Shown: positions 18,132-54,860 of the stretch, one piece after another
Numbering within the stretch: position 1 is the stretch's first letter
Layout: every line of letters begins with the position of its first letter
Assembly: GCA_020853525.1 (NCBI GenBank)
Contig: JADYYS010000023.1
Coordinates: 1 to 64,000 of the forward strand
Source of the DNA: Ardenticatenales bacterium
GTDB taxonomy: Bacteria > Chloroflexota > Anaerolineae > Epilineales > Epilineaceae
Length of the DNA stretch: 64,000 nucleotides
Reading direction: 5' to 3'
The notes under the pieces: generated by a model
What the model was told of the DNA's origin: nothing
The model's database searches: none
The model's input: only the letters and a program-made list of their open reading frames with translations
Program-made: the position numbers and the translations under genes

Positions 18132-18212
18132 GGCCGCGCGCTCAGCAAGCGACGTGCCCCGGCCGGCGAACGCACGGGGGTGCGGGCCGTCCGATGGCGG
18201 AGGCGGCGACGA

Positions 18213-19157: not shown

Positions 19158-19245
19158 GACGCACGGACTCCCTGGCGCGGGTCGAACGAACCGGGCGATG
19201 CTACCACAGGGGGCGGAGGCGGGCAAGGTGGTCGGGTCCGCCGCG

Positions 19246-23154: not shown

Positions 23155-23155
23155 C

Positions 23156-24934
23156 CTAGATGCCGAACATCGCCCGCAGGCGGCTGCTTTCCAGGACGCC
23201 GACACCGTCGTCGCCCTCGTGCAGGCCGAGGCTGTGGGAGGCCTTCAACAGGAGGCGGGTGACGATGATGGCCGTGAACATGGAGGTCAGCACGCCCAGC
23301 GCCAGCGTCACGGCGAAGCCCTTGACGATGCTCGCGCCGAACTGGTTGCCGAACCAGAAGAGGATGACGCACGTGATGAGCGTGCTCGCGTTCGAGTCAC
23401 GGATGCTTGGCCAGGCGCGCTCGAAGCCGCTCTCCATCGCCTTGGCGATCCGTCGGCCGGCCCGCAGCTCCTCTTTCATCCGTTCGAAGATCAGGATGTT
23501 CGCGTCGACGGCCATGCCGATCGAGAGCACGAAGCCGGCGATGCCGGCGAGCGTGAGCGTGACGGGCAGCATCCGGAAGATCGTCAGCGAGAACAGGGTG
23601 TACAGCAGGAGCGCGACGTTGGCGACGATGCCGGGCACCCGGTAGTACAAGAGCATGAAGAGCATGACGATGAGCAGCCCGAGCACACCGCCGTTCACCG
23701 CCGAAGAGATCGCCGAGCTGCCGAGCGTCGGGCCGATGGCGGTCTGACCGACGACCTTCAGCTTGAGCGGCAGCGATCCGGAGTTGATCTGGGCCGCCAG
23801 CGACTCGGCATCGGCCTTCGTGAACTGGCCCGTGATCTGGCCCTCCGCACCGATCGCGCCCTGCAGCGTGGGCGAGCTGATCACGGCGTTGTCGAGGATG
23901 ATCGGCATGACCTTCTGGAGATGCTGCGACGTGAAGCGCTGCATCCGCGCCGCGGCGCTCGACTTCACCTGGAACGAGACGGCGTACTGCAGGTTCTCGT
24001 CGAGCGTGACGGAGGCCGATGCGAGCTCGTCGCCGGTCAGGACGGTCGGGTAGAGCGTCTCGTCGGAGGCGATGATGCCGGTCGAGATCGGCTCGGTGGC
24101 GGTCAAGGCGTCCGTGGCGGTCACCGGCGTAGTGGCGTCGGCGGCGGCGGTGGACGTCGTCGGGAGCGTCGCGGTGGTGCCGGTCGTCGCCGTGGTTCCG
24201 TCGGTGGCCGTCACGCCTTCGGTGGCCGTCACTTCATCCGTCGATGCCGTGGTCGTCGTCGGCGACGTCCCGGTGATCGGCGTGGCGGCGCTTGCCGCCG
24301 TGGCGTTCGCGTCGGGCGTCGGCGCCAGGCGCGTCGGGTTGACGCCGCGGCCCGGCATGACGACGTCTTCGGGCTTGACCCACGACTCCGGAAAGTCGCG
24401 CGCCGGGTTGTCCGGATTGCCGAGGTACGGCTCCTGGTAGCCTTCCGGCAGGAGGTCGATCGTCAGCGGGTTCGTCGTTTCGACGATGGTGGAGGGCGCG
24501 AGCGCCTCGGTGCCGCTGTAGATGAACTCGAGGAGCGCCGTCTTGCCGATCGTCTGGATCGCCTGGTCCGGATCGCTGACGCCCGGCAGCTCGACGACGA
24601 TCTTGTCCTCGCCCTGTGTCTGGACGACGGGCTCGGTCACGCCGAGGCCGTTCACGCGGTTCTCGATGATGGCCTTGGCACGCTCAAGCAGTTCGGCCGT
24701 CACCGGGACCGCCCCCTGCTGCTCCGCCTGGAGGAGCACCTGCAGGCCGCCCTTCAGGTCCAGACCCTCGCGCAGGTGCAGCGAGCGGCGGGCGGGCTCA
24801 AGATGGGGCTGCAGGAGTCGCAGCAGCGCCGGAGGATGCTTGTAGCCGGACACGACGAGGTCGAGGTTGGCGACCACCGCGATCGTGGCCAGTATGAAGA
24901 TCACCACCGACCAGATGAGCGTTCGCTCGCGCAT
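23156..24934 (-). CDS. secD: Protein translocase subunit SecD
   Basis: The 592-residue protein has an N-terminal membrane segment (about 7-25), then LREGLDLKGGLQVLL (about 55-69), the large periplasmic P1 region, and five more membrane segments. Near the end is IGMAVDANILIFERMKEEL, the family core motif. An Ala/Thr-rich low-complexity stretch (about 205-285) splits the P1 region and is unusual. ATG 24934 gives the usual start and has GAGGTG just upstream. A promoter (TTGACC-18-TATAAT) lies about 120 bases before it. Confidence 0.95.
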   Translation of the reverse strand: MRERTLIWSVVIFILATIAVVANLDLVVSGYKHPPALLRLLQPHLEPARRSLHLREGLDLKGGLQVLLQAEQQGAVPVTAELLERAKAIIENRVNGLGVTEPVVQTQGEDKIVVELPGVSDPDQAIQTIGKTALLEFIYSGTEALAPSTIVETTNPLTIDLLPEGYQEPYLGNPDNPARDFPESWVKPEDVVMPGRGVNPTRLAPTPDANATAASAATPITGTSPTTTTASTDEVTATEGVTATDGTTATTGTTATLPTTSTAAADATTPVTATDALTATEPISTGIIASDETLYPTVLTGDELASASVTLDENLQYAVSFQVKSSAAARMQRFTSQHLQKVMPIILDNAVISSPTLQGAIGAEGQITGQFTKADAESLAAQINSGSLPLKLKVVGQTAIGPTLGSSAISSAVNGGVLGLLIVMLFMLLYYRVPGIVANVALLLYTLFSLTIFRMLPVTLTLAGIAGFVLSIGMAVDANILIFERMKEELRAGRRIAKAMESGFERAWPSIRDSNASTLITCVILFWFGNQFGASIVKGFAVTLALGVLTSMFTAIIVTRLLLKASHSLGLHEGDDGVGVLESSRLRAMFGI

Positions 24935-31413: not shown

Positions 31414-34400
31414 CTACGGTTTCGCCGCCTGTCCGAGCGTCGGGCTCGGCAGCGGCGACCCGCTCCCCCCGCCCGCGTCCCCGACATCGCCCGCCGTCGG
31501 GCTCGGCGACGGCGTCGCGACGGCGGGCGTCGGCGTCGGCGGTGTCGTCGATGCGGTTGCGGTGCCCGCGGTCGCGGCCCCGTCCGACGGCGTCCCCTCG
31601 CCTGGGACGAGCGGCGGTGGCCCGTCGTCCGAGAGCCCCGCCGCTGCACGCAAGCTCTCCGGCCAGTCATAGCGGGACACGACGTTCTTCTCGGAGCTGG
31701 CGACATAGATCTCGCCCGTCGCGCTCACCGCGATGCCGATGGGCTGCATCAGGCCGATGGGGTCGTTTTCGAGGTCGAGCGTGCCGAGGATCTTGCCCGT
31801 CGAATCGTAGATCCAGACGCGCGCGCCCTGCGGGTCGGTCACGAGGACCGTGCTGTTCGGGCCGACCGCCACATAGCCCTTGTGGGCGGCTTCCTTGCTT
31901 CCCCAACCGTCGACGGCCCACTCGCGCACGGGCAGGAGGTCCTTGCTGAACACCTGCACGCGCAGGTTCCAGAGGTCGGCCACGACCATCTCGCCCGTCG
32001 CCGGGTCGAACGCCACGGCCACCGGCTCGTTGAACTCGCCCGCCGCCGGACCCTCCTTGCCGATCGACCGCACGGCGGCCATCGCCGGGTCGAGGACGAT
32101 GATCCGCTTGTTGCCCGTGTCCGTGAAGAAGATCTCGCCGCCGGGCCCGACGGCCACGTCGCGCGGTCCGAAGAGCTTGTCCAGGTCCTTGTCCGCCCCG
32201 CCCTCCGGCACGCCGCCGATGCCGAACGACTTCTCCGTCCAGCGGTCGTCCCGGTAGAGCAGGATCCGGTTGTTCCAGGTGTCCGCCACGTACACCGAGC
32301 CGTCCGCGCCGACGCCGATGCCCCAGGCGCTCGGCTGCAGATCGGCGTCCTTCTCGCCGTACTGCAGGACGGGCGTGTCGATCACCGCGATCGTCGTCCC
32401 GTCCTCCGCCAGATGGGCGATCCGCTTGTTGCCGTGGTCCAGCACGTACAGGCTGCCGTCCGGCGCGAGCGCGATGTCCTTGGGCGCGCTGAACGGCACG
32501 CCGTTTGCCTCGCTGAACGCCTGGTCGACGTTGAACGGCACGCTGTGGTCGGGCGCCTGCGCCACCTCGACGTCCGTCATCCAGTCCGGCCAGCTCTGCC
32601 CCGTCGCGGCGAGCGCCTGGGCCGAGGACTTCTTCACCCAGAGCTTCATCTTGGCGTGGTAGAACCAGTCGTCCAGCGACTTCGGGACGAGCGGCCGCGC
32701 GGCGGGATCCGTCACGTACTCGCGGTGGAAGATGATCCGCAGCAGGTTCGCCCGCAGGTCCGGGTTCACGAACGTCTCGCGGATCCGCGGCCACGTGAGG
32801 CCCTTGTAGCCCTCGTTCGGCCAGTACATCCGGTTGACCTCGACCGCCACGAAGTCCTTGCGCAGGTAGGGCTCGAAGTTGCCGTAGTTCGGCGAGCCGA
32901 CGAGGACCGCGTCCAGCTCCTTCAAGCCGGCCACGTCGACGGTCTTGCCCTCGGCCAGGTACTTCGGGTCCTGGCGCCAGTCGCTGCACGTGTCGGCCGC
33001 CGGGCAGCCCTGGCCGAGCAGGCACAGGAGGTCGGCCGCGAGACCGCGAGCGCGGGGCGGGCAGATGTTGCGGAAGTACCACGTGTACGGCCAGCTCACC
33101 TCGTTGTCGAAGCCGAGCTTGAGCGGCTCGTCGGGGCGCGCGGTGTCCATCCGCTTCAGGAGGTCGTAGATCTCCTTGTCGTCCGGCGTGCCGTGCGCAT
33201 ACACCAGGTACTCCGTCCCGAGCTCACTGTTCTTGAAGTTGGCCTGCAGCGCGTAGCCCGCGCTCACCACGAGTCCGAACAGCATCGCACCGACGACGAC
33301 GGCCTTTCGCCGCTGCGCGGACACCAGGCCGGCGCCGACGGTGCGCACACCGACGACGAGCGCGATGACGATCACCACCGCCACGCCCCAGCCGACGGCC
33401 GCCGGCCGCGAGGCCTCGGCCGCGGCCAGCGACGTCGTGCGCGCGACGAGGCCGGCCAGCAGCGCCAGCGCCGCCACCGTCATCGCGGTCAGCTGCCAGC
33501 CCTTGGCGCGCCACGCCGCCACGTCGATCCCGGCCATCACGTCGGCCACGAACCGGGCACCGAGCAGGCACATCGGCACGGCCATGTGCGTGATCAGCCA
33601 CGGCATCTTCTCGCCGGCCCAGCTGAAGATCCACCATACGCCGAGCATCCATACGACGACCATCGGCACGAAGACCCACGCCGCCGGCGACGGCGACAGC
33701 GGATCGCCCGAGTCGTTGCCGCGATGGAAGCGGAGCGCCGGCCAGCGGCCGTACACCGCCAAGGCGCACAGGCACAGGATCATCGGCAGCCACTCGTAGA
33801 GCGGGCCGATGACGAGGATGTAGAAGTACCACGGCTGCCCGCCGCGCTGGACATCGTGCTGGCCCCACCAGTACTGGAGCGACCGGGCGAAGCCGTTCGC
33901 CAGGTCCGTCTCCTGGAACCACGTCGTGAAAAGGGCGATGTAGAGCACGACGAAGATCACGATGCCGACGAGCAGTCCCTCGTACGGCAGCCCGTTCAGC
34001 TGCCCGAGGACCGTGGGCTTCGGCCGGGCGGCGTGCAAGAGCGCCGCGCCGACGGCCAACGCCAGCAGCACGCCGGCTCCGACGGCCAGCGGCTCGGCCG
34101 TCTTCGTCAGGTGCGCGACGTCCGCCATGCCGAACGTCGTCGCCGCGAACGCCGCGAGGCCGATGGACACGCCGAGGAGCAGCGGCCAGAGCGCGTTCGT
34201 CCAGCGCGCGACGGCGCGGGCGCCGCCGCTCAGCCGACCCTGCACCTCCAGCGCCAGCGCCGCGAACCCAAGCGCGATCCCGACGCCGCCGACGATGGAC
34301 GCCTGCTGCCGGAAGCCGGCAAATCGCCCGGCGTCGGCGCCGTACTGCACGGCCAGGTCGAACACCAAAGCGGCCAAGCCGAAGACGGTCAGCAGCGCCC

Positions 34401-35811
34401 AGACCCGGTCGCGCGGCAGCATGGTGACCGCCCAGACCGCGAGCGCGATGAGCGCCGCCGCGGCCGCGATCTGCCAGGCGTAGTACGCGCTGTCGAAGGC
34501 CGTCGTCACGCCGTGATGGATCAACCCTTCGGCGACGACGATATAGAAGAGGGCCGCGACGGCGCCGCTCACGAGCAGCCCGAGGCGGCCGGCGGCGGCC
34601 GGCAGTTCGATGAACGATCCGACCGCGGCGATGGCCACGACGGGCGCACCGGCGACCAGCAGGCTGATGGCCACCTTGGCCATGTACCAGTTGAACGAAC
34701 CGGCCGTCGCCGCCGGGTCGAGGACCAAGAGGAGCACCGCGCCGGCGCCGATGAGGGCGAGACCGTAGCCCATCGGCGACCGCCAGCCCGGCGTCGATCG
34801 GACACCGAGCGCTTGCGCCACGAGCGGCACGGCGACGCCGAGGGCGATGACGAGCGCGACGCCGATCGCCGCGACCTGCCACGGCAGCAGCGTGGCCTCC
34901 GCCGGCGTCCCGGCGCCCATCGCCGCCGACTTGGCGAACGTGCGCACGGCGAAGCCGCCGAGCCCGAGCGCGAGCGCGAGGCCGAAGCGCTGCGCCCAAA
35001 GCAGCCAGTCGTCGTTCCGGCGCCCGGCCGACTCCACCCAGAGCGCGAGGGCGATGAACGCGACGAGCATGAAGCCGGTGATGTAGGACATTTCGGCGGA
35101 CGTGATGCCGATCAGGCCGCCGACGAACGCGGTCACGATCCACTTCGGCTGCCGATCGTCCAGATAGCGGACGAAACCGATGAGCATGAGCACGGTCGCA
35201 AGCTCGACCGGGATGTCGTGGCGGATGTAGCGCGAGTACATCATCACGCTCGGAGAGAGGAGCAGGAGGATGCCGGCGAAGAGCGCGCCCAGTCGGCCGA
35301 GCCACTTGCGCAGGAGGAGGGGCGTGGCGACGAGCACGATGCCCGACACCGCTCCGAAGAGCCGCGCCGTGAAGTCGCTCACGCCGAACAGGAGGTACAT
35401 GAGCGCGGTCCAGTGATAGAGGATCGGACCGTGCATCATCGGGTCGTGACGGTAGCCCTTGCCGACGGCCAGCTGCCACGAGTAGAACGTGTGCAGGCTC
35501 TCGTCGTGCGACATGCCGCGCTTGCCGAGGAGGTAGAGGCGCGTGGCCACCGCGGCGACGAGCACGAGCGCCCAGCCGACGGTCTCCCAGTCCCAACGCC
35601 AGCCGCCCAGCCGTTCGCGCACGGTCGGGCCGGTGCGGACACGGCGCGGCGGTGCGGCGGTTTCGGCCGGGGCGTCGGCGATGCCGTCGACGCCGTGCGG
35701 CACGCGCTCGTCTGCGGCATCGACGGCGCCCGTCGCCCCTCCCTCGGCGTCGCCCGTCGCCGTCGTCTCGTCGTCCTTCATGTCCGTCACATCGTCCATC
35801 TCTGCGTCCAT
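31414..35811 (-). CDS. TIGR03663-like membrane protein with C-terminal beta-propeller
   Basis: The 1465-residue protein has a cytosolic acidic N-terminus, then a GT39-like multi-pass region. The first outer loop carries [19 protein letters not shown], the hallmark of TIGR03663 proteins. More than twenty hydrophobic segments reach to about residue 870. A soluble region (about 870-1120) leads into six-bladed NHL-type repeats (about 1120-1410) with units such as [19 protein letters not shown] and [14 protein letters not shown]. The tail is Thr/Pro/Ser-rich. TIGR03663 proteins are linked to archaeal-type N-glycan or dolichol-linked sugar work, but the reaction is not established. It starts eight bases after the DUF2298 gene. 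Confidence 0.85.
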
Positions 35812-35819
35812 CTTGCGTG

Positions 35820-38354
35820 CTACTGCGGATCAGGGTTGAGGGCCCAGACCGTTGTCTGGCCCGATCGGAATGCCGGCGTCATGAACGTCGCCAGCCGGTC
35901 GTCGATGTCCGGGCCCATGTCCGGATACTTCGTGCGCTCCCACGCCCCGACGATGACATAGCGCACGGCGTACTTGTCGAGCATTTCCTTCATCGCGCCC
36001 GCCGGCATTTGGGCGTAAAAGGCGGCGACGTCGTCGATGCGCAGCCGGATCTGTTCTGGGGTGCGCCCCCACTGCGCCTCGTGGTTGTCGTTGCCCAACA
36101 CCGTCGGGAAGCCGGTGAGCATCGCGATCCGACCGGCGAGGTTGTAGGCGCCCGTGGCGGCCTCCAGGATCCGCGGCGTGCCGACCGCATTCGCGTCCAG
36201 CCAGCGTCCGGCCGCCAGATCGTCGGGGTTCTGCTGTTCCCAGTACCGGATGCCGTCCAGGTGGAGCCGGTCCGACCACGCCCGGTAGCCGCCGCTCCGG
36301 AAGGCCACCCAGCCGAGCCCGTCCGTGCGGTTGAACACGGCGGCGACGGGGGTGTAGAGGACCATCGCGGCCAGGACGACGAAGGCGGCCGTCCAGACGA
36401 GGCGACCGGCGCCCGGGTTCGGCACCCGCTGCCGGGCGCCGCCCGCCGTTCGGCCGCCGCCCGCCGGCCGCATCCGCGCGCGCGCCCAGACGGCCGTCAA
36501 CGCGTAGCCGCCGCCGATGCTCAACAGCACCCACGCCTGGAAGAAGAACTTGAAGATGGTGTTCATCCGGTCGTTGAACACGTCCTTCAGATAGATGAAC
36601 TCGGGCAGCGCCGCCATCGCCAGGCCGACGGCGATGCACACGAGCGCAAATGCGGCGGCGGCGTGGCCGGTGTCGTCCGCGGCGGCGTCCGCGGCGTTGT
36701 CCACCGCCCGGTCCTCGGCGTCCTCGTTCGCGTCGACGTCGGCGCCAACGCCGAGCCGCACGGCGTAGCGTCCGTCGGCGAACAGGGCGATCAGTGCGAC
36801 GGCGGCGAGGCCGACGACGAGCACCGGGGTGAGGGGCGTCCAATGCGTTTCGGCGCCGGCCGCCGCCCAGCGCGGGACGACGATGCTCCAGGCCGCGACG
36901 GCGCCCGTGGTGACGGCGACGGCGGTGAGGGCACGCGTCGGACCGCGCGCGCCGGCCGTCGTGCGAAGGCGCAGCGTCACGACGGTGGCCGCCAGGAACG
37001 CCAGGGGCAGGAAGTGCACGGACCAATGATCCAGCCGCGACGTGTGGAGCGCCATGCCGATCCCGGACGCCTGGGTGTCGAACGCAAGGTAGAACGGCAG
37101 ATAGAGCACGATCGCCAGGCCGAGCAGCCAGACGCCGAAGACCCCGATGTCCGCCAGCACCGAAGCGCCCCTGCCGCCCTGCCGCAGCCGCCACAGGGAC
37201 CAGCAAGCGCCCGTGACGAGCCCGTACGTCGGCAGGTCCCACGTGTTCAGGAAGCCGAGGGCGCCGATGCACAGCGGCACGAGCCACCACATCGGCGCCC
37301 GGAACCGTTGGTCCGTCCAACGCTCGCCGGCCCCGAGGAGGAGCGCAAGGCCGATCGCCAGGGCGAGGAGGGCGTAGGGCAGCGTCATGAGGTGCGGGTG
37401 GACGTCCGCCAGGAGGAAACTGAAGAACGGGTACTCCTGGATGACGTCCTTGCAGCCGTCCCGGATGACGCGCGACGTGCGCCACCACCACATGAACCGC
37501 GACGGGAAGATGCCGCCCATGCCGTAGCCGCTGCCGGGCTCACCGCACGCGTCGGCGACCACGGTGAGGTTCCGGATGTTCATGAAGTCGAAGGCGCGGG
37601 CCGGCAGCCAGCCGCGCATGTAGGCCAGCTCGAGGTAGCCGGCGAGGTTGCCGGCGACGGCCAGCATCGCCGCCGTCGTCGCGCCGGCCAGGATCCGCAG
37701 GCGGCGCGTCGTGCCGGGCGTGAGGACGGACAGCGCCCAGCCGAGGCTGAACGCGGCGGCCAGCGTCATCGCCCACGTCATCGGCACGACGAGGTTGTAG
37801 GCGACGAAGCGCGAGAGGCCGGTCAGCTTCACGAGCATCGCGGCGATCAGGTAGCCGAAGTAGTAATAGCTGATGCTGTGGCCGCTCATCCACGGGTCGT
37901 TCGGCGGGAAGTCCGGGCTCTTGTCGATGGCCGAGAGGAACGCCATCTCCATCATCTTCTCGCCGCCCGACTCCGTGATGTCGGGATAGAACGCGCGGTA
38001 CAACGCCCACAGCACGAGAGCGACGAGGTACAGCGTCTCGAGGCCGACGAGCAGCCGCCGCCGCGCGCGCAGCTCGGCCAGCCAGCCGGGCACGTCCCGC
38101 GCCACGAGCGCCGCCCCGCCGCCGCCGACGAGCGCGAGCGCGACGATCACGCCGACGCGCGAGTTCGGCAGCACGCCGGCCGTCACGAGGAACCACCACG
38201 TGTAGCCGACGAGGAGCAGCCCGAGCGGTCGCGCGAAGGCCAGCCCGCGGTCGGGCAGCGTCGGCAGCAGCGTCCGCGCGATCGGCGCGGCGGCGATGCC
38301 GACGACGGTCGTCGCCGCCCACCATGCCAGCGCCTGGCCGACAACCGTCGTCAT
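35820..38354 (-). CDS. DUF2298 (Chlor_Arch_YYY) membrane protein
   Basis: The 844-residue protein has about fifteen hydrophobic segments and the family motifs GGEKMMEMAFLSAID, DPWMSGHSISYYYFGYL (the YYY element) and FFSFLLADVHPHLMTLPYAL. The soluble C-terminal part ends in a domain like that of its fused paralogue (PRILEAATGAYNLAGRIAML, then TPEQIRLRIDDVAAFY). DUF2298 has no proven activity. The ATG overlaps the stop of the upstream fusion gene (ATGA). Confidence 0.92.
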   Translation of the reverse strand: MTTVVGQALAWWAATTVVGIAAAPIARTLLPTLPDRGLAFARPLGLLLVGYTWWFLVTAGVLPNSRVGVIVALALVGGGGAALVARDVPGWLAELRARRRLLVGLETLYLVALVLWALYRAFYPDITESGGEKMMEMAFLSAIDKSPDFPPNDPWMSGHSISYYYFGYLIAAMLVKLTGLSRFVAYNLVVPMTWAMTLAAAFSLGWALSVLTPGTTRRLRILAGATTAAMLAVAGNLAGYLELAYMRGWLPARAFDFMNIRNLTVVADACGEPGSGYGMGGIFPSRFMWWWRTSRVIRDGCKDVIQEYPFFSFLLADVHPHLMTLPYALLALAIGLALLLGAGERWTDQRFRAPMWWLVPLCIGALGFLNTWDLPTYGLVTGACWSLWRLRQGGRGASVLADIGVFGVWLLGLAIVLYLPFYLAFDTQASGIGMALHTSRLDHWSVHFLPLAFLAATVVTLRLRTTAGARGPTRALTAVAVTTGAVAAWSIVVPRWAAAGAETHWTPLTPVLVVGLAAVALIALFADGRYAVRLGVGADVDANEDAEDRAVDNAADAAADDTGHAAAAFALVCIAVGLAMAALPEFIYLKDVFNDRMNTIFKFFFQAWVLLSIGGGYALTAVWARARMRPAGGGRTAGGARQRVPNPGAGRLVWTAAFVVLAAMVLYTPVAAVFNRTDGLGWVAFRSGGYRAWSDRLHLDGIRYWEQQNPDDLAAGRWLDANAVGTPRILEAATGAYNLAGRIAMLTGFPTVLGNDNHEAQWGRTPEQIRLRIDDVAAFYAQMPAGAMKEMLDKYAVRYVIVGAWERTKYPDMGPDIDDRLATFMTPAFRSGQTTVWALNPDPQ

Positions 38355-41300
38355 GGCGCGGCCGCCGGGGCCGGTTCCGCCGCGCCGCACGGTGCACCGG
38401 CGGGATCCAGGGGGCGCCGGTAGATCGTCACATGTTCGTTCTGGAACACCGCTTCGATCTCCCCCGCCTGCGACCAGCGCGCGAACTTGTCCAGGCCGGC
38501 AGCGTCGTAGCGCATCGTCTCGAGCTGGCCGACGATGATCAGCTCGACCCCGTACGTGCACAACAGGCGCCGCGCCTCCGCGGCGTCCGTCGAACCATAG
38601 ATCGTCTCGACGTCGCGCATCCGGTTGCCGACGGGATCGTTCGTGATCGCCGCCTTCTGCTGCCGCTGGTGCCAGTCCCAGCCGATGACCGTCGGCAGGC
38701 CGGTGTAGATGCTGATCCGCGAACCCCAGTGGTAGTTGATCGGCCACGTGCCCTCGAGGATCGTCGGCGTGCCGTCGACGTTGGCGAGCAACCACTGGAT
38801 CGCCTCGTGGTCGGCGCGGAGCTCGAGCAGGTGCGGCGCCTGCGGGCTGTGCTCGTCGTACTCGATGTAGGCGGCGTGCGCCATGTAGTCGATGCCGGAC
38901 AGCCCGGGACGATGGAGCGCGGCCATGTCCGCCTCGGGGATCGAACGGTCGGCCGGGAAGCGGTCCTCGATCTTCGCGCGGGCGGCGGTGATCGTATAGA
39001 CGAGCCCGCAGCACACGAGCACCGCCATCGTCCCCCGCCACAGCCAGCGCCACTCGATGTTCGGGCGTCGGACGAGCCACTCGAGGAACGCCGCCAGCGC
39101 GACGCCGGCGCCGATCGACCACAGGATCCAGACGTGGATGTAGAACTTGAAGACGGTGTTCATCCGGCCGATGTCGCCGCTCAACACGACGTACTCCACG
39201 AAGCCCGTCAGCAGTGCGCCGACGGCGACGTACCAGCCGAGCAGACGCGCGCCCTGGCGTGCCGTCCGCCGCAACACCATCGACAGGCCGAGGACGACGA
39301 GGCCGAGGACGAGGAGCGGCATGAGCAGCTCGGGCCGCGGCACTTCGGCCGGCAGATCGGCCTGGAACGTCCGGAGCGACCAGCGCCAGAGCAACAGCGC
39401 GCCGGCGGCGGCGGCCGCCGCCAGCACGATGGTGCGGCCGAGGAAGGCGCGCCCCTCGTCGCGGCGACGGAGAGATGCCGTGACCTCCGCCGCGCCGAAG
39501 CTGACCAGGGCGAACAGGAAGATCCCGTGGATCGTGAGGTACGCGCTCGTCGGCGTCCGGAAGCCGATCCAGGGCTTGAACTCCGAGTACGGGGTGATGT
39601 AGTTCAGGTGGTACGGCAGGAAGAAGAGCAGGCTCAGGCCGAGCAGCAGGCCGCCGGTGGCCGCCACGAGCCCCAGCCAGGCGGCGTCCAGCCGGCGCGT
39701 CCGGGCGAAGGCGCCGAGCGCGATCGCGCCGGCGGCGATCAGGCCGTACGTCGGGTAGTCCCACGTGTTCGTCGGCCAGAGCGCGCCGATCGCCAGCGCG
39801 CCGAGCGCCATGCGGACGGCGGACTCGGGCGCCGGCCACGGCAGGCGGAAGGACGGGGCGCGGCCGGGCAACGCCCAGCCGAGAGCCACGGCGCACGCCA
39901 GCACCGCGATCGGCATCGCCATCATGTGGGCGTGCAGGTCGGCGTAGAGGAACGTGAAGAACGGGAACTCCGTGATCGGCTGGACGTCGCCGCTGACGGA
40001 CGGGATCGCGCGCGATGCGTTCCAGTACCACCAGTCGAGCGGGATCGGGAGGTTCTGCAGCGGTTGGGAAACGACGTCCCACAGCCCGACGAATGCCCGC
40101 GCCATGCCGCCGACCGAACCCCAGTTGTCCAGGACCGACGACAGCCGTTCGACGGCCCCGCCCCGCGACTGCGGTCCGAATTCCGCCAGCCGCGCCGCCA
40201 TCCAGGGCGCCTGATAGAGGTTGCCCATCAGGACAGCCATGATCGCCGCGACGACGCCGGACCGCCTCGCGCGTCCCGTCCGCACGTCAAGGCGCCCAGC
40301 CCAGCCGACGACGATCCCGTACACCCCGGCCGCGGTCATCGCGGCCAGCGTCGGAATCGCCAGGTTGTAGGCCAGCCACGGCACGATGCGCGTCAGCTTG
40401 ATCAGCGTGCCGATGAACACGAAGCCGTAGTAGTAGTAGTTCAGCTTGCTGCCGCTGAACCACGGGTCGTACGGCGGGTAGTGGACGCTCCGCAGCACGG
40501 CGTTCAGGTAGGCAAAGTCCATCGGCTTCTCGCCGCCCTTGGACGTGTGCCACAGATCCGGGTTGCCGTAGCGGATGCCGAGGAAGACGGCGAAGACCGC
40601 CAGGAAGACGAGCTCGACGCCGAGGACGGCCTCGCGGTTGTCCTTGAACCACGCCAGCGGACGGAAGCCGGCCCAGCGGGCGACAAGTGCCGAAAGCAGC
40701 GCGACGGCGAGCGCCGACGCGACGAGCAGCAGCCAGGTGTTCGGGATGAAGTCCGTCGAGGCGGCCAGCCACGAGACGTAGCTCGTGAGCAGCAGTCCGG
40801 CGGTCCGCGCCACCGACCAGCCGCGGTCCGGCAGGCGCGGCAGCGCAACGGCCACGAGCGGGAACGCGGCGAGACCGAGGAGCGTCAGGACGGCGTACCA
40901 CAGCAGGACGGCCAGCGCCGGAAAGCGGTTGATGGGACTGTCGACATGGAACATGGCGCGCCACGTGCCGCCGTCTCGCTGCCGGGCGGCGCGCGGTTCG
41001 GACAGGAGGATCGCGTCGACCGTCTTGTTCTTGAGCCCCGCGGCCGCCGGCTCGCCCGGCGCATCGGCGATCGGCGCGACCCGATCGACCGGAATCCGGC
41101 CGAGGATCGCATCGAGGAACCGGGTGATCGGGTTCGGCGAGACCGGCGGGAAGGACCAGTGCCGCGCCGCGTTGAGGGGCGCCAGGTAGGCGCGCAGCGC
41201 TGCGCCGTCGAACGGCTCCGGCCGCTTGAAGACGTCGACGGCCGGGTGGTCGTAGACGTGGTAGGCCTCCTCGGCCCCCTGATCGTCCACCGCCAGCGGC

Positions 41301-43795
41301 CCGAGGTTCGGGAACGAGCGGATCGCGGCGATGTGCTGCCAGCCTTGCGTCTCGCCGAACAGCACGTCCTGGTAGAACGCGATCGTCGCCGGATAGCGCA
41401 TCGGCAGCTGGGCCACCGCGCCGTACACGCGATTCGACGACGACACCCAGTAGTCCAGCTGCCCGATCTGCTCGATCGTCTGGTTCAGCCAGTCCGGGTA
41501 GTCCTCACCGTACATCTCCAGCTGCGTGACGCCGAACAGGCCGTCCGCCCAGTCCGTCTTCGCATCGTCGTAGCCGCCGTAGCCGTACATGCCGTCCGGG
41601 ACGATGTCGTCCCAACCGGTCTCGTATGCCAGGCGCGCGGGCCGGACGGTCACCGGACCGCCGTCGACGGCGACCCAGACATAGATCTCCTGACCAAGGC
41701 GAAGGTCGATCGGCGCGTCGAGCGGCACGACGACGTCGGCCGGCTCGGCGCCGATGCCGACCGCGAGACGGCCCTGCGCCACCGCCCGCTCCGGCACGCC
41801 GCCCGCCCCGAGCGACGCGCCGCTCGAGAGCACGACGCGCACCGTCCGTTCCCCGCCGGCGCTGCCCCGGGCGTACGCGAGCCGCACCGCATCGACCGTG
41901 ACCGCCGGCAGCGACTCGACATCCTCGAGGCTGCCGCGCTTGGGCGTCCAGAGATCGGGCCTGGCGCCGTACTGATCGCCGGTGTGGCGCTGCTGCCACG
42001 ACTCGTCCGGCAGCAGCAGCCGCATCGGCCCGGCCCACGCCGCGTCGAGCGGCCACTCGATGCCGCCGACCGTCCGCAACGCGCCCGGCGCCTGCGCCGG
42101 CAGCCACGGGCCGGCATACAGACCCTGGGCATCGGCGCTGATCCGCACGCCGACGGCCGTCGGCAGGTTGTGGTAGACCCAGTGGCTGCCCGCGACGCGG
42201 CTGTGATGGCGCGTGTACAGCCGGGAGAACATGAACCCCCACGCCACGGTGCCGACCACGACGACGGCGAGCGCGGCGACGGCGGCACGAGCAGCGAGCG
42301 GGCCGGGGACCCGCCCACGGCGAACGGCGGCGGCGTCGGCGGCGTCGGCGGCGCCCGCAGCGTCGGGTGCACCGGCGTGGACATCGGCGTCCGTTGCACC
42401 GGCAGCGGCCGTCGCCCGGGCGCGGTCAAGCCACGCCACCAGGCCCCACCCGGCCAGCACGGCGAGCGCCGGGTAGATCGGCAGCCCGTAGCGCATCGTC
42501 TTGCCCCACTGGATGCCGGTGTAACCGAAGTAGATCGTCACCCAGAGCCACAGCAAGAGGTGCCGCCGCCGCCCGCGCCAGATCGCCACCCCGGCCGCCA
42601 GCCAGCCGAGCCAGGCGGCAAGTCCGAGCGCCGGCCCCATGCCCCACAAGACCATGTTCCGCCACGGGAAGACGTAGGCCATCCGACCCCACCATTGGTG
42701 GTTCGGCGGCCAGTCCATCCCGAATCCGGTCACCTGGCTCTTGATGCGCTCCATGTTGCCCAACCAGCGCGGGTCGGGCAGGACGTACTTCTCCAAGCCG
42801 TCGGGGATGATCGTGCGCAGCGCCGTCCAGGTGTCGGGCGCCAGACCCATGACCTCGGTCGTCACCTCGGTCAGCCGGGTCGAATTGCCGACGACGTTCG
42901 GCCAGCCGGGTCCGGCCCACATGTCGGGCTGGGCAAATCGAAGCGCGACGTAGCTGACGAGGCCCAGGACGGCCACCTTGCCCGCCGCGACGTACAGCCG
43001 ACGCCAGGAAGCGTCCCGATCGAGCCCGAGCAGCCGCGCGTGGCGCAGCTCGCCGGCGGCGATCGCCAGGATCGCCACGGGGATCAGCAGGAACACCGTG
43101 ATCTTGCTGCCCAGCGCCATGCCGAGCCCGACGCCGGCAAGGACGATCGGCCACCACGATTCACGGCGAATCGCGAGGGCGAGTCCGAACAGGGTCAGCG
43201 TGACGAACGTCGTGAGCGCGGCGTCCACCGTGAAGAAGTGCGCCTGCTGGATGTGGAATGCCGTGAAGGACGTGAACAGCGCGGCCAACAGCCCGACGCG
43301 GCGGTCGTACAGGACGGCGCCGAGCCCGAAGACGAGGAGCACGGTCAGCAGGTCGAGCAGCGCGCTCATGTAGCGGCCGACGATGTAGACGCTCGAAAAG
43401 TCGGTCATGCCGAGGCCGAGCGGCCCGTTCGCATCGGCCATCACCCGGGCGATCGTGATCGGCCACGTGCCGTACGAGAAGAACGCCTTGCCCATGTTCC
43501 GTGGGTTCAGCGTCGAAGTGTCCGTGTCGAGATAGTGGAGGAGGTCGTTCGGCATCGCCAGCGAGCTGGCGACGTCCGTCAGGAAGCGCTCGTCCGGGTG
43601 GAGATGCTGCCCGGCGTCCCAGTCGATGCCGACGGTCCGCAAGTGGAACCCGCACAGGATGATCCCGACGAGCGCGACGGCCGTCGTCGCGTCGTCCAGG
43701 CGGCGGATGCGCCGGGCGAGGGCGGCCAGCCTGCCGGGGCGCTGCGTGACGGCGGGCGCAGGCACCGGCGTCATCGGGTCGGGCGCATCGATCAT
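38351..43795 (-). CDS. GT39-like / DUF2298 fusion membrane protein, 1814 residues
   Basis: The N-terminal half (to about residue 960) is a GT39/PMT-like multi-pass protein with the first-loop motif HLHPDERFLTDVASSL and about eleven hydrophobic segments, then a large soluble region. The C-terminal half is a complete DUF2298 protein: GGEKPMDFAYLNAVLRSVHY, then WFSGSKLNYYYYGFVF (YYY), then FFTFLYADLHAHMMAMPIAV. The DUF2298 half is paralogous to the next gene. Both of its junctions are four-base ATGA overlaps. The GT39 part would move a sugar from a polyprenyl carrier; this is inference. Confidence 0.9.
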   Translation of the reverse strand: MIDAPDPMTPVPAPAVTQRPGRLAALARRIRRLDDATTAVALVGIILCGFHLRTVGIDWDAGQHLHPDERFLTDVASSLAMPNDLLHYLDTDTSTLNPRNMGKAFFSYGTWPITIARVMADANGPLGLGMTDFSSVYIVGRYMSALLDLLTVLLVFGLGAVLYDRRVGLLAALFTSFTAFHIQQAHFFTVDAALTTFVTLTLFGLALAIRRESWWPIVLAGVGLGMALGSKITVFLLIPVAILAIAAGELRHARLLGLDRDASWRRLYVAAGKVAVLGLVSYVALRFAQPDMWAGPGWPNVVGNSTRLTEVTTEVMGLAPDTWTALRTIIPDGLEKYVLPDPRWLGNMERIKSQVTGFGMDWPPNHQWWGRMAYVFPWRNMVLWGMGPALGLAAWLGWLAAGVAIWRGRRRHLLLWLWVTIYFGYTGIQWGKTMRYGLPIYPALAVLAGWGLVAWLDRARATAAAGATDADVHAGAPDAAGAADAADAAAVRRGRVPGPLAARAAVAALAVVVVGTVAWGFMFSRLYTRHHSRVAGSHWVYHNLPTAVGVRISADAQGLYAGPWLPAQAPGALRTVGGIEWPLDAAWAGPMRLLLPDESWQQRHTGDQYGARPDLWTPKRGSLEDVESLPAVTVDAVRLAYARGSAGGERTVRVVLSSGASLGAGGVPERAVAQGRLAVGIGAEPADVVVPLDAPIDLRLGQEIYVWVAVDGGPVTVRPARLAYETGWDDIVPDGMYGYGGYDDAKTDWADGLFGVTQLEMYGEDYPDWLNQTIEQIGQLDYWVSSSNRVYGAVAQLPMRYPATIAFYQDVLFGETQGWQHIAAIRSFPNLGPLAVDDQGAEEAYHVYDHPAVDVFKRPEPFDGAALRAYLAPLNAARHWSFPPVSPNPITRFLDAILGRIPVDRVAPIADAPGEPAAAGLKNKTVDAILLSEPRAARQRDGGTWRAMFHVDSPINRFPALAVLLWYAVLTLLGLAAFPLVAVALPRLPDRGWSVARTAGLLLTSYVSWLAASTDFIPNTWLLLVASALAVALLSALVARWAGFRPLAWFKDNREAVLGVELVFLAVFAVFLGIRYGNPDLWHTSKGGEKPMDFAYLNAVLRSVHYPPYDPWFSGSKLNYYYYGFVFIGTLIKLTRIVPWLAYNLAIPTLAAMTAAGVYGIVVGWAGRLDVRTGRARRSGVVAAIMAVLMGNLYQAPWMAARLAEFGPQSRGGAVERLSSVLDNWGSVGGMARAFVGLWDVVSQPLQNLPIPLDWWYWNASRAIPSVSGDVQPITEFPFFTFLYADLHAHMMAMPIAVLACAVALGWALPGRAPSFRLPWPAPESAVRMALGALAIGALWPTNTWDYPTYGLIAAGAIALGAFARTRRLDAAWLGLVAATGGLLLGLSLLFFLPYHLNYITPYSEFKPWIGFRTPTSAYLTIHGIFLFALVSFGAAEVTASLRRRDEGRAFLGRTIVLAAAAAAGALLLWRWSLRTFQADLPAEVPRPELLMPLLVLGLVVLGLSMVLRRTARQGARLLGWYVAVGALLTGFVEYVVLSGDIGRMNTVFKFYIHVWILWSIGAGVALAAFLEWLVRRPNIEWRWLWRGTMAVLVCCGLVYTITAARAKIEDRFPADRSIPEADMAALHRPGLSGIDYMAHAAYIEYDEHSPQAPHLLELRADHEAIQWLLANVDGTPTILEGTWPINYHWGSRISIYTGLPTVIGWDWHQRQQKAAITNDPVGNRMRDVETIYGSTDAAEARRLLCTYGVELIIVGQLETMRYDAAGLDKFARWSQAGEIEAVFQNEHVTIYRRPLDPAGAPCGAAEPAPAAAP

Positions 43796-46080
43796 GGGCT
43801 TGGCTCCGCGGGCACGACGTTTGGCTCCAACCCGCCGCGGGCGGGGTCCGCCGGCACGACGACGGTCCAGAACGGCTTGTCGGGCGATCGGGCCGCCCCG
43901 GGCGCGACGACGGCGCCCGGGAACAGTTCACGCAGATAGGCGATGTTCGCCTCGGCCCGCGGGCCGGCGACGAGATAGAGTTGGCGCTCGGGATCGGCCA
44001 CATGGTCGTCGGCCTGGTTGACCGCGTCCGAGCCGTCGGGGGCGACGCCCCACAGCAGCCCGTTCCAGTCCGGTTGGCCGAAGCTGAGGCCGATGACGCG
44101 GTAGTCCCAGCCGTTCGACCACCCCACGAGGAAGACGCGGTCCAGCGCCCCTCCGTCGGCGAGGAACGTCCGCACGACGGCGACCCCGTCCGAGGTGTTC
44201 TGCGACGATCGGTCGTAGTTCTCACGGTACTCGACGAAGTAGCGCTTGGCCGTGTTGCGGTCCATCCCGACGAAGAGCACGGCGACGAGCGCCCATGCCG
44301 CCGCTCGGCCCGCCCAGCCGAACGCATGGTCGGCCGAGGCCACCAGGACCGCCAGCGGAAGCGCGCACAGCACCGCCACGAACGGCAGGGCGCCGGCCGC
44401 ACGGGCCAGGTGCGGCACTTCGATCGGGTAGGCCAGCGCCAGGATGCTGGCCAGGAGCATCGGCGGCACGGCCGCCAGCACGAGACCGGCCCGCCAGTGC
44501 CGCCGCCGCACCGCCCAGACCAGGGCCGTGACGGCGCCCAGGACGAGGAGCGCGCCGCCGATGGTCTCGAGCCCGGGCCGGCCGGGCGGGCTGTGGATCC
44601 ACGCGCTGTCGGCGGTGAAGTTGGCCATGCCCATCGCCTGGCCCGTGTTCCGCCAGAACCGCGGGTCCATCAGCAGCGCGACGGTCCGCCCGACGACCGG
44701 CACGGGCGCGAGAAGGCCCGCCAGCGGGGGCAGAGCGGCCGCCTCGTCGCCCGCCATGCGGGTGAGCGTTCGCGCCCAGAACTCGGGCCGGTCGACGGCG
44801 TACCGGATGAGCGGCGCGGCGACGAGGAGCGAGACGAGCGCCGCCGCCGCCGCGTTCGCCAGCAGGGGTGCCGCCGCGCGCAGCCCGTCGGCGACAGCGC
44901 GCGGCCCGCGCCACAGCGCGTGGGCCACGTGCACCCCCACCGCCATGCCGACGACGATCGCCATCGGCCGAAAGCCGGTGTAGCCGTACATGCCGGCGCC
45001 GAGCGCGATGCCGAGCGCCAGCCAGGCGTTCCGGCGGCCCGTCGACAGCGCGAGGATCAGACAGGCCAGCGTCAGCGTGCTGAAGAACGGGGACCACGCG
45101 ATCCGCATCGCCGCGCGCGAGATCTGGATGTGCCACGGCGCCAGCGCCAGGACGGCCGCGGCGAGCCACCCGACGCGCGCCCCGGCGATCCGCTTGCCGG
45201 CGACGAACATGAGGGGCACGGTGGCGATCGACACGAGCTGCATGCCGAACTTCTGCGTCCAGAACCCGAACGGAAGACCGAGCTTGACGAGGAACGCGGT
45301 GAGGTAGAACTGGAGGGGCTCGCGTCCGGCGTTCTGGTCGAGGAAGACCGGGCGCGCACCGCCGATCACGTCCCAGATGTCGAGGAGCTTCTCGGTGTGA
45401 TCGCTCGACATGTCGAGCGGCAGGCGGTCCAGGTCCCACAGCCGAAGCACGGCCGCGACGGCCAGCACGACGCCGCCGGCGACGAGCTGGCGCACGGGCC
45501 AGCGCGCCGGCCGGTGCGCGGCGATCCAGGCGGCACGGCCGGTCGGCGGCGCACCGCGGGCCCGGCCCGTCTCGGCGCGCAGGGCCGCCACGACGCACGC
45601 CGTGCCGACGCCCCACAGGACGAGGCCGGGCCATGTCAGCACGTTGTTCGAACGCCACGGCCATCCCGGAACGTCCTCCTTGTAGCGAAGGATCGCGAGC
45701 CCGCCGCTGCCGGGCGCCACGAGCAACGGCATGACGACCGTCGTTGCGAGCACCGCGGCGATGCCGATGAGGAACAACCGGAGCCGGCGGCCGGACAGGG
45801 CGGGCGCGGCCTCGGGCGGCGCGTCGGGCGGCGCCTCGAGCGGCGCGTCGGGCGGCGCCTGGACGTCGCCCGCATCCGGCAGACGCCAAAGCGCGACCGC
45901 CCAGCACACCGCCGCCACGACGAACCACATCCCGCCGCGGCGGATCGCCGCGCCCGGGTCCGGGCTGCCCCATGCGGCGAACGGAACGCGGTCGATCACG
46001 GCTTGCGCGTACAGCGCCAGCATCAGTGCGCCGACCACGAGGCCGAACGTCGTCGCCGCCCGGGCGTCGCGCGCGTTCAC
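43792..46080 (-). CDS. GT39/ArnT-like membrane glycosyltransferase
   Basis: The 762-residue protein has about fourteen hydrophobic segments and the PMT_2-like first-loop block DMSSDHTEKLLDIWDV with QNAGREPLQFYLTAFLVKLG. A soluble C-terminal domain of about 120 residues follows. GTG 46080 overlaps the methyltransferase stop (GTGA) and its stop overlaps the next start (ATGA). It would transfer a sugar from a lipid carrier at the outer membrane face; the acceptor is unknown. Confidence 0.85.
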   Translation of the reverse strand: MNARDARAATTFGLVVGALMLALYAQAVIDRVPFAAWGSPDPGAAIRRGGMWFVVAAVCWAVALWRLPDAGDVQAPPDAPLEAPPDAPPEAAPALSGRRLRLFLIGIAAVLATTVVMPLLVAPGSGGLAILRYKEDVPGWPWRSNNVLTWPGLVLWGVGTACVVAALRAETGRARGAPPTGRAAWIAAHRPARWPVRQLVAGGVVLAVAAVLRLWDLDRLPLDMSSDHTEKLLDIWDVIGGARPVFLDQNAGREPLQFYLTAFLVKLGLPFGFWTQKFGMQLVSIATVPLMFVAGKRIAGARVGWLAAAVLALAPWHIQISRAAMRIAWSPFFSTLTLACLILALSTGRRNAWLALGIALGAGMYGYTGFRPMAIVVGMAVGVHVAHALWRGPRAVADGLRAAAPLLANAAAAALVSLLVAAPLIRYAVDRPEFWARTLTRMAGDEAAALPPLAGLLAPVPVVGRTVALLMDPRFWRNTGQAMGMANFTADSAWIHSPPGRPGLETIGGALLVLGAVTALVWAVRRRHWRAGLVLAAVPPMLLASILALAYPIEVPHLARAAGALPFVAVLCALPLAVLVASADHAFGWAGRAAAWALVAVLFVGMDRNTAKRYFVEYRENYDRSSQNTSDGVAVVRTFLADGGALDRVFLVGWSNGWDYRVIGLSFGQPDWNGLLWGVAPDGSDAVNQADDHVADPERQLYLVAGPRAEANIAYLRELFPGAVVAPGAARSPDKPFWTVVVPADPARGGLEPNVVPAEPSP

Positions 46081-47006
46081 CGTTGCGCCGCCCCGTCCGG
46101 CTTGCGGGCGCACAGGCCGATGATGAGGAACGGCTCGTCGGCTCGGGGCGGCAGGACATCGTTCAGGCGGTCGACCGCGTTGAAGGCGGCCAGTCCCCAG
46201 CGGATCGGGTTCCGCCATCCGCCCGCATCGGACGAGGTGTCGAAGCGGTCGGCGGCGGCGGCCATCGACGCAGGCAGGCGGCCGGCGACGAGGAGCTCCT
46301 TGCCGAGGCCGTACACCAGGTTGTGGATGAACGGGAACGCGAAACGAGTGAAGAACCGCACCTCTTCCACGATCAGTCCGGCCTCGGCCACCTTGGCCGC
46401 CAGATCCTCGGGCGTGTAAAGCCGCTCGTGGTTCGCCCAGATCCCGGACAGGACGCCGCGGCGGATGGGACGGCCGATCGTCGCCTCGAGTACCTTGTTG
46501 ATGGGATCCCATGCAAACGGGTAATCGGCATTGGGCGTGGTGATCGCCAGCCGGCCGCCCGGAGCCAGGACGCGCGCCAACTCGGCGAGCGCGGCGCGGT
46601 CGTCCGGGATGTGCTCGATGACCTCGGAGAACAGGATCCGCGTGAACGCGCCGTCGGCGAACGGCAGGGTGTACACGTTGCCGTTCACGACCCGCGCGCC
46701 CGGCACCTGTGCACGCGCCGTGTGCAGCAGCGGTCGATCGAGTTCGACGCCGACGACATCGGCCATCGGGTAGAGGTCGCGCGTGAACTTCAGGTAGAAG
46801 CCGCGCCCGCAGCCCATGTCCAACACGCGGTCGTCCGGCCCGATCCGCAGGAAGTCGTACACCGCTTCCGCCCGCCGTTTGAACGACATGTCGGCCTCGT
46901 TGGCCAGCATCCGCCGCAGCCGCGGCGCGTCGAACCCCCACCCCGTGGCGTTGGTGCGCAGCCGGGCTGAAGGCTCGGTTGGGGCGGTCGTGGGGTCCTC
47001 GACCAA
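46077..47006 (-). CDS. SAM-dependent methyltransferase, first gene of the envelope operon
   Basis: The 309-residue protein has motif I VLDMGCGRGFYLKFTRDL (near residue 60), VVGVELDRPLLHTARAQV, LFSEVIEHIPDDRAAL and GGRLAITTPN. It is of the UbiE/COQ5-like or sugar-methyltransferase type. The start TTG 47006 is supported by AGGAG six bases upstream; no better start was seen. Being first in the five-gene operon suggests it methylates a glycan or lipid intermediate there, which is inference. Confidence 0.85.
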   Translation of the reverse strand: MVEDPTTAPTEPSARLRTNATGWGFDAPRLRRMLANEADMSFKRRAEAVYDFLRIGPDDRVLDMGCGRGFYLKFTRDLYPMADVVGVELDRPLLHTARAQVPGARVVNGNVYTLPFADGAFTRILFSEVIEHIPDDRAALAELARVLAPGGRLAITTPNADYPFAWDPINKVLEATIGRPIRRGVLSGIWANHERLYTPEDLAAKVAEAGLIVEEVRFFTRFAFPFIHNLVYGLGKELLVAGRLPASMAAAADRFDTSSDAGGWRNPIRWGLAAFNAVDRLNDVLPPRADEPFLIIGLCARKPDGAAQR

Positions 47007-47318: not shown

Positions 47319-49184
47319 CTACGGGCACGGCAGCGCGCCGCCGACCGCGCGGAACGCGCGCACGAAGGCATCGCCGTCGCCCGCATCGAAGACGCGTTCG
47401 GGCGCGCCGGTCACGGCCTGCAGGAGCGCCAGCGCGGCATAGGGGCCGACCGCCACGGCGAAGCGCTCGGCACCGGCCTGGCCGAGTGCCGCCGCGGCAT
47501 CGAGCACATCCTGCTCGGTGGCGCCGAACACCTGCCCATCGCTTACGAGCACGACGGCGCGTCGCCGAGCGGCATCGGGCGGGCCGAGCTGTTCGGCCGC
47601 CGCGCGGAGCCCGAGATCGATCCGCGAGCCCTGTTCGGCGTCGATCGGCGCCGTCAGGGCCGCCCGCACTGCCTGCAGATCGCCTGTGAGCGCGATCCAG
47701 ATCGATGCCGCGGCATCGAACCGGACGAACGCCACCCGGACATCTCGGCGACCGTCGAGGCCGTCGACGAGCCGGCGGATGCCCTCGACAGCCACGTCGA
47801 GCTTGCGTCGCCCGCTTGCCGTCATGCCTTCCATCGTCGTCGATGCATCCAGGACGACGACGAGGTCGAGCGGTGCCGCACCGGGCAGACACCCGCCGGC
47901 AAGGGCGATCGGGAGGTAGATGCGTGCGGCGCCGGCAGGCGTCGAGGGCGTCGGGATGCGGGTCGTCGTTGCGGTCGGCGTCGCCGCCGGGGTGGCGGGC
48001 GTTGCCGGCGTGGCGGACCCCGTCAGCCGGCGCGTCGGTGATGCCGAGGCCGTCGGCGTGACGCTCGGAACCGCGGTGGGCGACGGCATCTCGGCGACGA
48101 CGTCGAGCACCGGGATCGGGATCGCGACCGAGCCCGGGCGGCCGAGCGCATCCTCGAACGTGGCGACGGTGAAAGCGCTGACCGGCCAACGGCCGGTCGC
48201 GCTCGGTGCGAGGCCGTATGTGATCGTGATCGGCTCGCCCGCCGCGGCAGGGATCGTCCAGCGCTGCGCGTCACCCACCTGGGTACCCTCCGGCACCGCC
48301 GAGCCAGGCCAGGCGGACAGCGTCGCGCCGATCCGGTCATCGATCGCCAGCTGCCGCACGCCCAGCCGCTGCAGCCGTTCCGCGATCCGGATGTAGACGC
48401 CGGCCAGGTCCTCCGCCGTCGAAACGCGCCAGTGGTCGGATGGCGTCGCGGCGATCGCGGCCAGCAGCGCTGCATCGGCGCGCCGGCCGAGCGCCACAGT
48501 CGTCAGATGGACGTCGTTCCCGCGCTGGACGGCCGCCTGCTGTCGGACCGCATCGGGACCGCGGTTGTTCACGCCGTCCGACAGCAGGACGATCGCCTGA
48601 ACGCGGCCCGTCCGGCCGTCGTCCGCGCCGGCGGCCAGCTCCTGCCCGGCCGCACGGAGCGCCCGGACGATATCGGTCCCGGCCGCCGGCGGCACCTCGA
48701 TCCGCGCGATCGCGCTGTGCAGGCGACTGCGGATGCTCGACAGCGGCACGAGGACGGTCGCCGTGTCGTCGAACGCGACGAGCGCGACCCGCGTCCGGCC
48801 GAGCTCGACCCGATCGACGAACGCGCCGGCGGCTGCCTTGGCGAAGGCCAGCGACGCGCCGCGCATCGACGCCGACCGATCGATCGCCAGCGCGACATCC
48901 ACCGGGCCGGGCACCTCCGGGCACGCGATCCGAATCACCGCCGTGACGGTGACGCGGGTGCCGACGGTCACCGGGCTCGGCGCGACCGATCGTTGCGCGG
49001 TCGCGGTGCACGACGTGGGCTCGTCAGCGGCCATGCGGGCCTGCGCGATGTGCCGCCATCCGACACCGGCGAGCATGATCGCCACCGACAGCGCGACTTG
49101 CATGCCGGCACGTCCCCGGCCGGCCCCGGCGAGGCGGCTCCCTTCGGACCCGTCATTGAAGCGCCCGGGCGTACCGTGTGTCAC
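47319..49184 (-). CDS. Secreted/anchored protein with two VWA domains
   Basis: The 621-residue protein has one N-terminal hydrophobic segment (about 29-45). A Cys-flanked module comes next (SCTATAQRSVAPSPVTVG, ending with RIACPE) and runs into VWA domain 1 (MIDAS DRSAS, 102-106). A DUF11-like beta-domain follows, then a Thr/Pro/Ala-rich linker, the motif IYLPIALAGGCLPG, and VWA domain 2 (DASTT). VWA domains bind metal and partner proteins. GTG 49184 overlaps the cytochrome c stop by four bases; an in-frame ATG at about residue 28 is an alternative. Confidence 0.85.
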   Translation of the reverse strand: MTHGTPGRFNDGSEGSRLAGAGRGRAGMQVALSVAIMLAGVGWRHIAQARMAADEPTSCTATAQRSVAPSPVTVGTRVTVTAVIRIACPEVPGPVDVALAIDRSASMRGASLAFAKAAAGAFVDRVELGRTRVALVAFDDTATVLVPLSSIRSRLHSAIARIEVPPAAGTDIVRALRAAGQELAAGADDGRTGRVQAIVLLSDGVNNRGPDAVRQQAAVQRGNDVHLTTVALGRRADAALLAAIAATPSDHWRVSTAEDLAGVYIRIAERLQRLGVRQLAIDDRIGATLSAWPGSAVPEGTQVGDAQRWTIPAAAGEPITITYGLAPSATGRWPVSAFTVATFEDALGRPGSVAIPIPVLDVVAEMPSPTAVPSVTPTASASPTRRLTGSATPATPATPAATPTATTTRIPTPSTPAGAARIYLPIALAGGCLPGAAPLDLVVVLDASTTMEGMTASGRRKLDVAVEGIRRLVDGLDGRRDVRVAFVRFDAAASIWIALTGDLQAVRAALTAPIDAEQGSRIDLGLRAAAEQLGPPDAARRRAVVLVSDGQVFGATEQDVLDAAAALGQAGAERFAVAVGPYAALALLQAVTGAPERVFDAGDGDAFVRAFRAVGGALPCP

Positions 49185-54781: not shown

Positions 54782-54860
54782 CTAGTACTCTGTCACTGGA
54801 CACGCTTCGGGTATCCGACAGAGGTAGGCATCCGTAGACTCTGCAGTGACAGAGTACTAG
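54782..54860. mobile_element. MITE-like inverted-repeat element (79 bp)
   Basis: CTAGTACTCTGTCACTG (54782-54798) and its exact reverse complement (54844-54860) enclose 46-47 bases. TA steps next to both ends suit a TA target duplication of IS630/Tc1-mariner type. No transposase is present. The TAG stop of the VWA gene on the minus strand (54859-54857) lies inside the right arm. Confidence 0.65.

Follow-up and report, generated by a model that had tools for sequence, protein, structure and literature searches.

A conserved Chloroflexota operon of GT-C-like membrane proteins with a probable role in surface glycosylation

In Gtr-type three-component systems, membrane enzymes of the glycosyltransferase C (GT-C) class use polyprenyl-phosphate sugars outside the membrane (PMC11127046). 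Purified Agl23 (TIGR03663) of Haloarcula hispanica is reported to translocate M5GN2-PP-lipid in liposomes and to suppress the loss of rft1 in yeast (2024, PMC11182771), and genetic work as cited there (Lu 2020) links Haloarcula Agl23 to the use of hexose-phosphodolichol. Our literature search found no paper naming TIGR03662 or TIGR03663, only passing mentions of DUF2298, and no description of the gene combination reported here. It is a five-gene operon at positions 31414–47006 of a 64,000-nucleotide stretch (the window) of an Ardenticatenales bacterium of the phylum Chloroflexota (GCA_020853525.1, contig JADYYS010000023.1, positions 1 to 64,000), encoding a methyltransferase, a GT39-like membrane protein, a fusion of a protein O-mannosyltransferase (PMT)-like module with a DUF2298 module, a stand-alone DUF2298 protein, and a TIGR03663 protein that ends in an NHL beta-propeller. 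We propose that, in a polyprenyl-phosphate-sugar glycosylation pathway, the operon probably provides the outer-face portion, made up of five GT-C-like modules and a methyltransferase.

The genes are read in this order from the minus strand and fill the interval (Table 1). They are tightly coupled, as a preliminary description of the window had reported: overlaps of 4 nucleotides (nt) join the methyltransferase to the GT39-like gene (46077–46080), the GT39-like gene to the fusion (43792–43795) and the fusion to the DUF2298 gene (38351–38354), and a gap of 8 nt (35812–35819) precedes the TIGR03663 gene, whose NHL propeller that description did not mention. Third-position guanine–cytosine (GC) content is coding-like in all five genes (0.89–0.95) despite long shadow open reading frames on both strands, and a gene caller that learned codon usage from the window recovered the same five. 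For the methyltransferase it favoured an alternative ATG start at 46910; the TTG start is preceded by AGGAG, which resembles a ribosome-binding site. Promoter and terminator scans of the sequence gave matches at chance level only. The flanking genes, sucC/sucD 161 nt downstream and a gene for a von Willebrand A (VWA) protein 312 nt upstream, are apparently unrelated, and we rejected the downstream genes (sucC/sucD and a polyA-polymerase/tRNA-nucleotidyltransferase-like gene) as members of the system.

Table 1 Genes and modules of the operon
Feature	Position	Strand	Remarks
Methyltransferase gene	46077..47006	-	309 amino acids (aa), TTG start; Methyltransf_11 type, class I S-adenosylmethionine (SAM)-dependent
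GT39-like GT-C membrane protein gene	43792..46080	-	762 aa, GTG start
PMT+DUF2298 fusion gene, two GT-C modules	38351..43795	-	1814 aa, ATG start
N-terminal PMT-like GT-C module of fusion	41876..43795	-	HPDE motif H66 P67 D68 E69
C-terminal DUF2298 / Chlor_Arch_YYY module of fusion	38417..40915	-	profile match and invariant residues
Stand-alone DUF2298 / Chlor_Arch_YYY gene	35820..38354	-	844 aa, ATG start
TIGR03663 (Agl23)+NHL gene	31414..35811	-	1465 aa, ATG start
TIGR03663 GT-C part	33067..35571	-	H102 D103 E104 motif; GEKMPW 733–738
NHL beta-propeller domain	31552..32544	-	Pfam NHL 8.5e-25

The two families that dominate the operon travel together. Among 201 Chloroflexota genomes, 133 have strong TIGR03662 matches and 132 strong TIGR03663 matches; all 132 also carry TIGR03662, none has TIGR03663 alone, and the single exception is a fragmented assembly (Fisher P 1.6e-53, a value that overstates independence because the genomes are related). 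Both families pass their cut-offs in the same 2 of 14 control genomes, H. volcanii and M. acetivorans. This co-occurrence is probably not new in itself, because the NCBIfam notes already remark on it.

Gene order was compared in two sets of loci: 40 stretches partly picked for closeness of both families, and 80 loci retrieved with the DUF2298 profile only and not chosen for synteny. In the second set, a TIGR03663-like gene follows DUF2298 in 63 of the 72 loci with room for one, and 46 of 69 have a fusion or other DUF2298-type gene upstream of DUF2298; GT39 precedes the fusion in 20 of 34 loci, and a methyltransferase precedes that GT39 in 16 of 17. Across both sets, 50 Chloroflexota loci other than that of the window show the order fusion, DUF2298, TIGR03663, and 17 of these have all five genes in order. 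Such conservation of order across the phylum led us to reject chance juxtaposition, and it supports the proposal, already made in the preliminary description, that the methyltransferase and the large membrane proteins would form one functional unit. Scattering of the genes in relatives, named there as evidence to the contrary, is mostly not seen; the exception is the TIGR03663+NHL gene, which certain families within the class of the window have at another place (for example, in genome G005). The five genes are a genuine, conserved and probably co-transcribed set that probably serves glycosylation, and the families in it are known ones. Because this operon occurs commonly in the phylum, the window itself is not exceptional.

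A DUF952 gene adjoins the cluster in 13 loci (for example, L049:11284-11805); in L048, L049, L052 and L104, which have both the fusion and the stand-alone DUF2298 gene, it separates the two. Outside the phylum, plasmid searches for archaeal synteny gave one unannotated haloarchaeal fragment with no helpful neighbours, and a DUF2298 gene was found amid polysaccharide genes on plasmid pNP95 of Pseudobutyrivibrio xylanivorans, a member of the Clostridia (L165:7917-10172), a setting that favours a role in glycan synthesis.

Both DUF2298 modules are clear members of their family. The fusion matches DUF2298 at 4.3e-105 and PMT_2 at 3.3e-12 in Pfam and scores 529.6 bits with TIGR03662, and the stand-alone protein matches DUF2298 at 4.4e-99 and scores 462.1 bits, against a TIGR03662 cut-off of 300.25. 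In the fusion, the HPDE motif of the PMT-like half is 98–100% conserved (66 sequences); in the DUF2298 module, conservation among 65 sequences is 100% for E1089, D1286 and H1288, 98% for H1290 and 95% for D1110. In the stand-alone protein, E132, D153, D317, H319, H321 and the YYY motif region Y163–Y165 are nearly or fully invariant (68 sequences), and the residues of the fusion that correspond to the first five are 95–100% conserved. AlphaFold2 models were made of two proteins, this one and the TIGR03663 protein. The DUF2298 model is of high confidence (pLDDT 88.8, pTM 0.93); its nearest Foldseek matches are DPY19, STT3/AglB and ArnT, and it separately matches the C-terminal globular domain of AglB. 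A search of PDB sequences with the DUF2298 profile returned spurious matches only, triosephosphate isomerase and a chemokine receptor among them. The predicted fold and the invariant acidic residues support placing DUF2298 in the GT-C class; because the TM-scores are modest, we claim no orthology to any known enzyme.

The TIGR03663 protein scores 203.1 bits against a cut-off of 126.25, and its NHL domain is shared with the corresponding genes of relatives. The sole clear PDB match of the TIGR03663 profile is ArnT (5EZM, 3.8e-9), in an alignment that sets hDE over pDE of ArnT and GEKMPW over SKLPGY. Among 38 TIGR03663+NHL sequences, H102, D103 and E104 are 100% conserved, and GEKMPW is 97–100% conserved except for G733 (92%). 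The DE and HGP motifs, marks of the family according to its NCBIfam note, are both present (HDE 102–104, HGP 127–129; 94–100% conserved). The model is of middling confidence (pLDDT 71.6), with the first 200 residues and residues 550–830 good, and Foldseek matched it to AglB, Pmt1/2/4 (3.3 Å over ~212 columns) and ArnT. Profile, predicted fold and invariant residues together support placing the protein among the GT-C transferases that resemble ArnT and the PMTs. In many relatives, a short TIGR03663-like paralogue stands directly after DUF2298 (L041-L160, for example, L083:12650-14434); it keeps E104 (94%), its Asp falls below the 70% listing threshold, and it is perhaps an inactive partner. This paralogue is absent from the window, and a query with the L090 copy found none in the genome, a weak negative given that the search had no positive control.

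The methyltransferase matches Methyltransf_11 at 1.1e-20 and keeps its SAM-binding glycines among 34 homologues. In the GT39-like protein, D227, R322 and P423 are conserved among 42 homologues, and a match to archaeal STT3 is weak and sub-threshold (7.3e-5). A conserved Asp or Glu is found in each module in the predicted first outer loop, a position consistent with a catalytic role.

We therefore favour the following mechanism. Of the five GT-C-like modules, the GT39-like protein, the stand-alone DUF2298 protein and the TIGR03663+NHL protein would each supply one and the fusion two. Each module would take a sugar from a polyprenyl-phosphate sugar that had already reached the outer face by flipping and would transfer it to a surface glycan, either growing or finished, with one defined linkage per enzyme; the soluble domains (NHL and C-terminal) would keep the acceptor in place. 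On the cytosolic side, the methyltransferase would O-methylate a sugar or an intermediate. Genes elsewhere in the genome would charge the sugars, make the carrier and carry out the flipping.

The wider genomic context agrees with this division of labour. The operon itself holds no charging enzyme, carrier synthase, known flippase or ligase, so the preliminary view of a complete machine does not stand, whereas the link to lipid-linked glycans that it also drew is favoured by the GT-C folds, the ArnT profile match and glycosylation-type neighbours. In relatives, those neighbours recurrently include PF03706 membrane proteins, NDP-sugar epimerases and, read from sequence, GT4-like transferases; housekeeping genes such as one for cytidylate kinase (likewise read from sequence) occur beside the cluster too. 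Candidate partners lie on contig C11 of the genome at ~20.9–32 kb (L182:932-11954), where GDP-mannose dehydratase-like, polyprenyl synthetase, GT2, GT4, PF03706 and PMT-like genes, interspersed with a TatD gene and two unidentified genes, all fall within 12 kb; this run is a plausible source of carrier and donor for the operon. The genome as a whole has 16 GT2 matches at ≤1e-10.

Several observations weigh against our proposal. No GtrA-type protein was found in the genome. The GT39-like protein matches PMT_2 only below threshold (23.1 vs a cut-off of 26.1 bits; 9.5e-5), whereas the fusion and the TIGR03663 protein pass a PMT/PMT_2 cut-off; the earlier assignment of all four membrane proteins to two families accordingly holds for the fusion, DUF2298 and TIGR03663 proteins but not for this one. 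Global TM-scores of the DUF2298 model to known GT-C enzymes are modest (0.28–0.44), and those of the TIGR03663 model are lower still. Finally, because movement of a lipid-linked oligosaccharide in vitro is reported for its purified relative from Haloarcula (PMC11182771), the TIGR03663 protein might be a translocator, or a translocator as well.

That last point underlies an account we consider unlikely, in which TIGR03663 would be the flippase of the pathway, the DUF2298 and PMT proteins its transferases, and the operon a union of translocation and transfer. The NCBIfam name, ‘flippase activity-associated protein Agl23’, the liposome and yeast results for the H. hispanica protein (PMC11182771), and an operon with neither a MOP nor an ABC flippase all fit it. 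The name and the in vitro data mean that the earlier remark that the reactions of these families are not established holds for DUF2298 but no longer for TIGR03663. However, fold and profile point to GT-C: the flippase WzxE aligned with the TIGR03663 model only at E 0.7 (probability 0.08), so the fold gives no support to a MOP-type flippase, a candidate that we rejected. A pure scramblase would also have no need of HDE and the ArnT-like GEKMPW, which are strongly conserved, and the paralogue without the Asp is the short one, which the window lacks. One way to reconcile the two lines of evidence would be for Agl23 to bind lipid-linked sugars strongly and, under overexpression, to move them.

Two further possibilities concern what the transferases make, and we hold both to be rather improbable. 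The operon could make a long surface polysaccharide in the manner of a polymerase: its fusion and its DUF2298 protein would polymerize, and the TIGR03663+NHL protein would cap or anchor the chain. The grouping of several GT-C modules within a single operon is reminiscent of the mycobacterial arabinan enzymes, Foldseek finds weak similarity to AftD/Emb enzymes, and the PF03706, GT4 and epimerase neighbours would suit such a pathway. Yet the similarity to Emb/Aft is below that to DPY19, STT3, PMT and ArnT, and the sequences do not separate processive from single additions. Alternatively, DUF2298 could be the oligosaccharyltransferase or C-glycosyltransferase of bacterial protein glycosylation, standing in for STT3 in Chloroflexota; this idea arises because its model is nearest to DPY19 and STT3/AglB and has an AglB-like C-terminal domain, and because only 1 of the 133 phylum genomes with DUF2298 has a strong STT3. 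STT3-dependent N-glycosylation itself was rejected: STT3 (PF02516) has no match in the whole genome and is strong in only 4 of the 201 phylum genomes, the proteins of the window show no more than sub-threshold traces of archaeal STT3, and the many weak matches in the phylum are taken as GT-C cross-matches.

Two large families of absent or disputed reaction are united in a phylum-wide conserved operon with a methyltransferase and PMT-like partners. This makes formerly unknown membrane proteins the subject of a testable proposal: GT-C transferases would act at the Chloroflexota surface, whose chemistry is little known, on sugars carried by lipids. The cluster also offers a clean route to decide between flipping and transfer of lipid-linked sugars as the task of Agl23 proteins, since many relatives carry full-motif and Asp-less copies side by side.

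Other features of the window lie apart from the operon. At 761–5050 on the plus strand, two adjoining SIR2-like genes, one with tetratricopeptide repeat (TPR) and protein kinase domains and one with a caspase domain (Peptidase_C14), lie in a stretch of lower GC content (0.585–0.59), suggestive of an island for defence or cell death. The minus strand at 15481–24934 carries genes for SecD and SecF; genes for an ABC transporter ATPase and for membrane proteins lie between the two and also follow them. Four VWA proteins are encoded close together (47319–49103 and 54857–56332 on the minus strand; 56919–58826 and 59185–61422 on the plus strand), followed by an NHL-repeat-like frame at 61428–63998.

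Compared with described systems, the operon resembles the Gtr type in its predicted chemistry but differs in clustering several GT-C enzymes without a charging GT2 or a flippase (PMC11127046). The TIGR03663 protein of the window differs from Haloarcula hispanica Agl23 in its NHL propeller and in sharing an operon with DUF2298, and because the genome has no STT3 match, it cannot supply an oligosaccharyltransferase of the AglB type in a comparable manner. With ArnT (GT83) it shares a profile match with aligned DE and the predicted fold, and with the protein O-mannosyltransferases (GT39) the predicted fold, at low sequence identity in both cases; the acceptors of these enzymes, lipid A and Ser/Thr, have no demonstrated counterpart for the window proteins. 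DPY19 and STT3/AglB are the best structural matches of the DUF2298 model, at modest TM-scores and with no sequence-level similarity. As for the TIGR03662/DUF2298 (PF10060) proteins themselves, both window modules lie far above the curated cut-offs with the YYY region and the invariant acidic residues, and the fusion beside a stand-alone copy is the usual Chloroflexota arrangement rather than one unique to the window.

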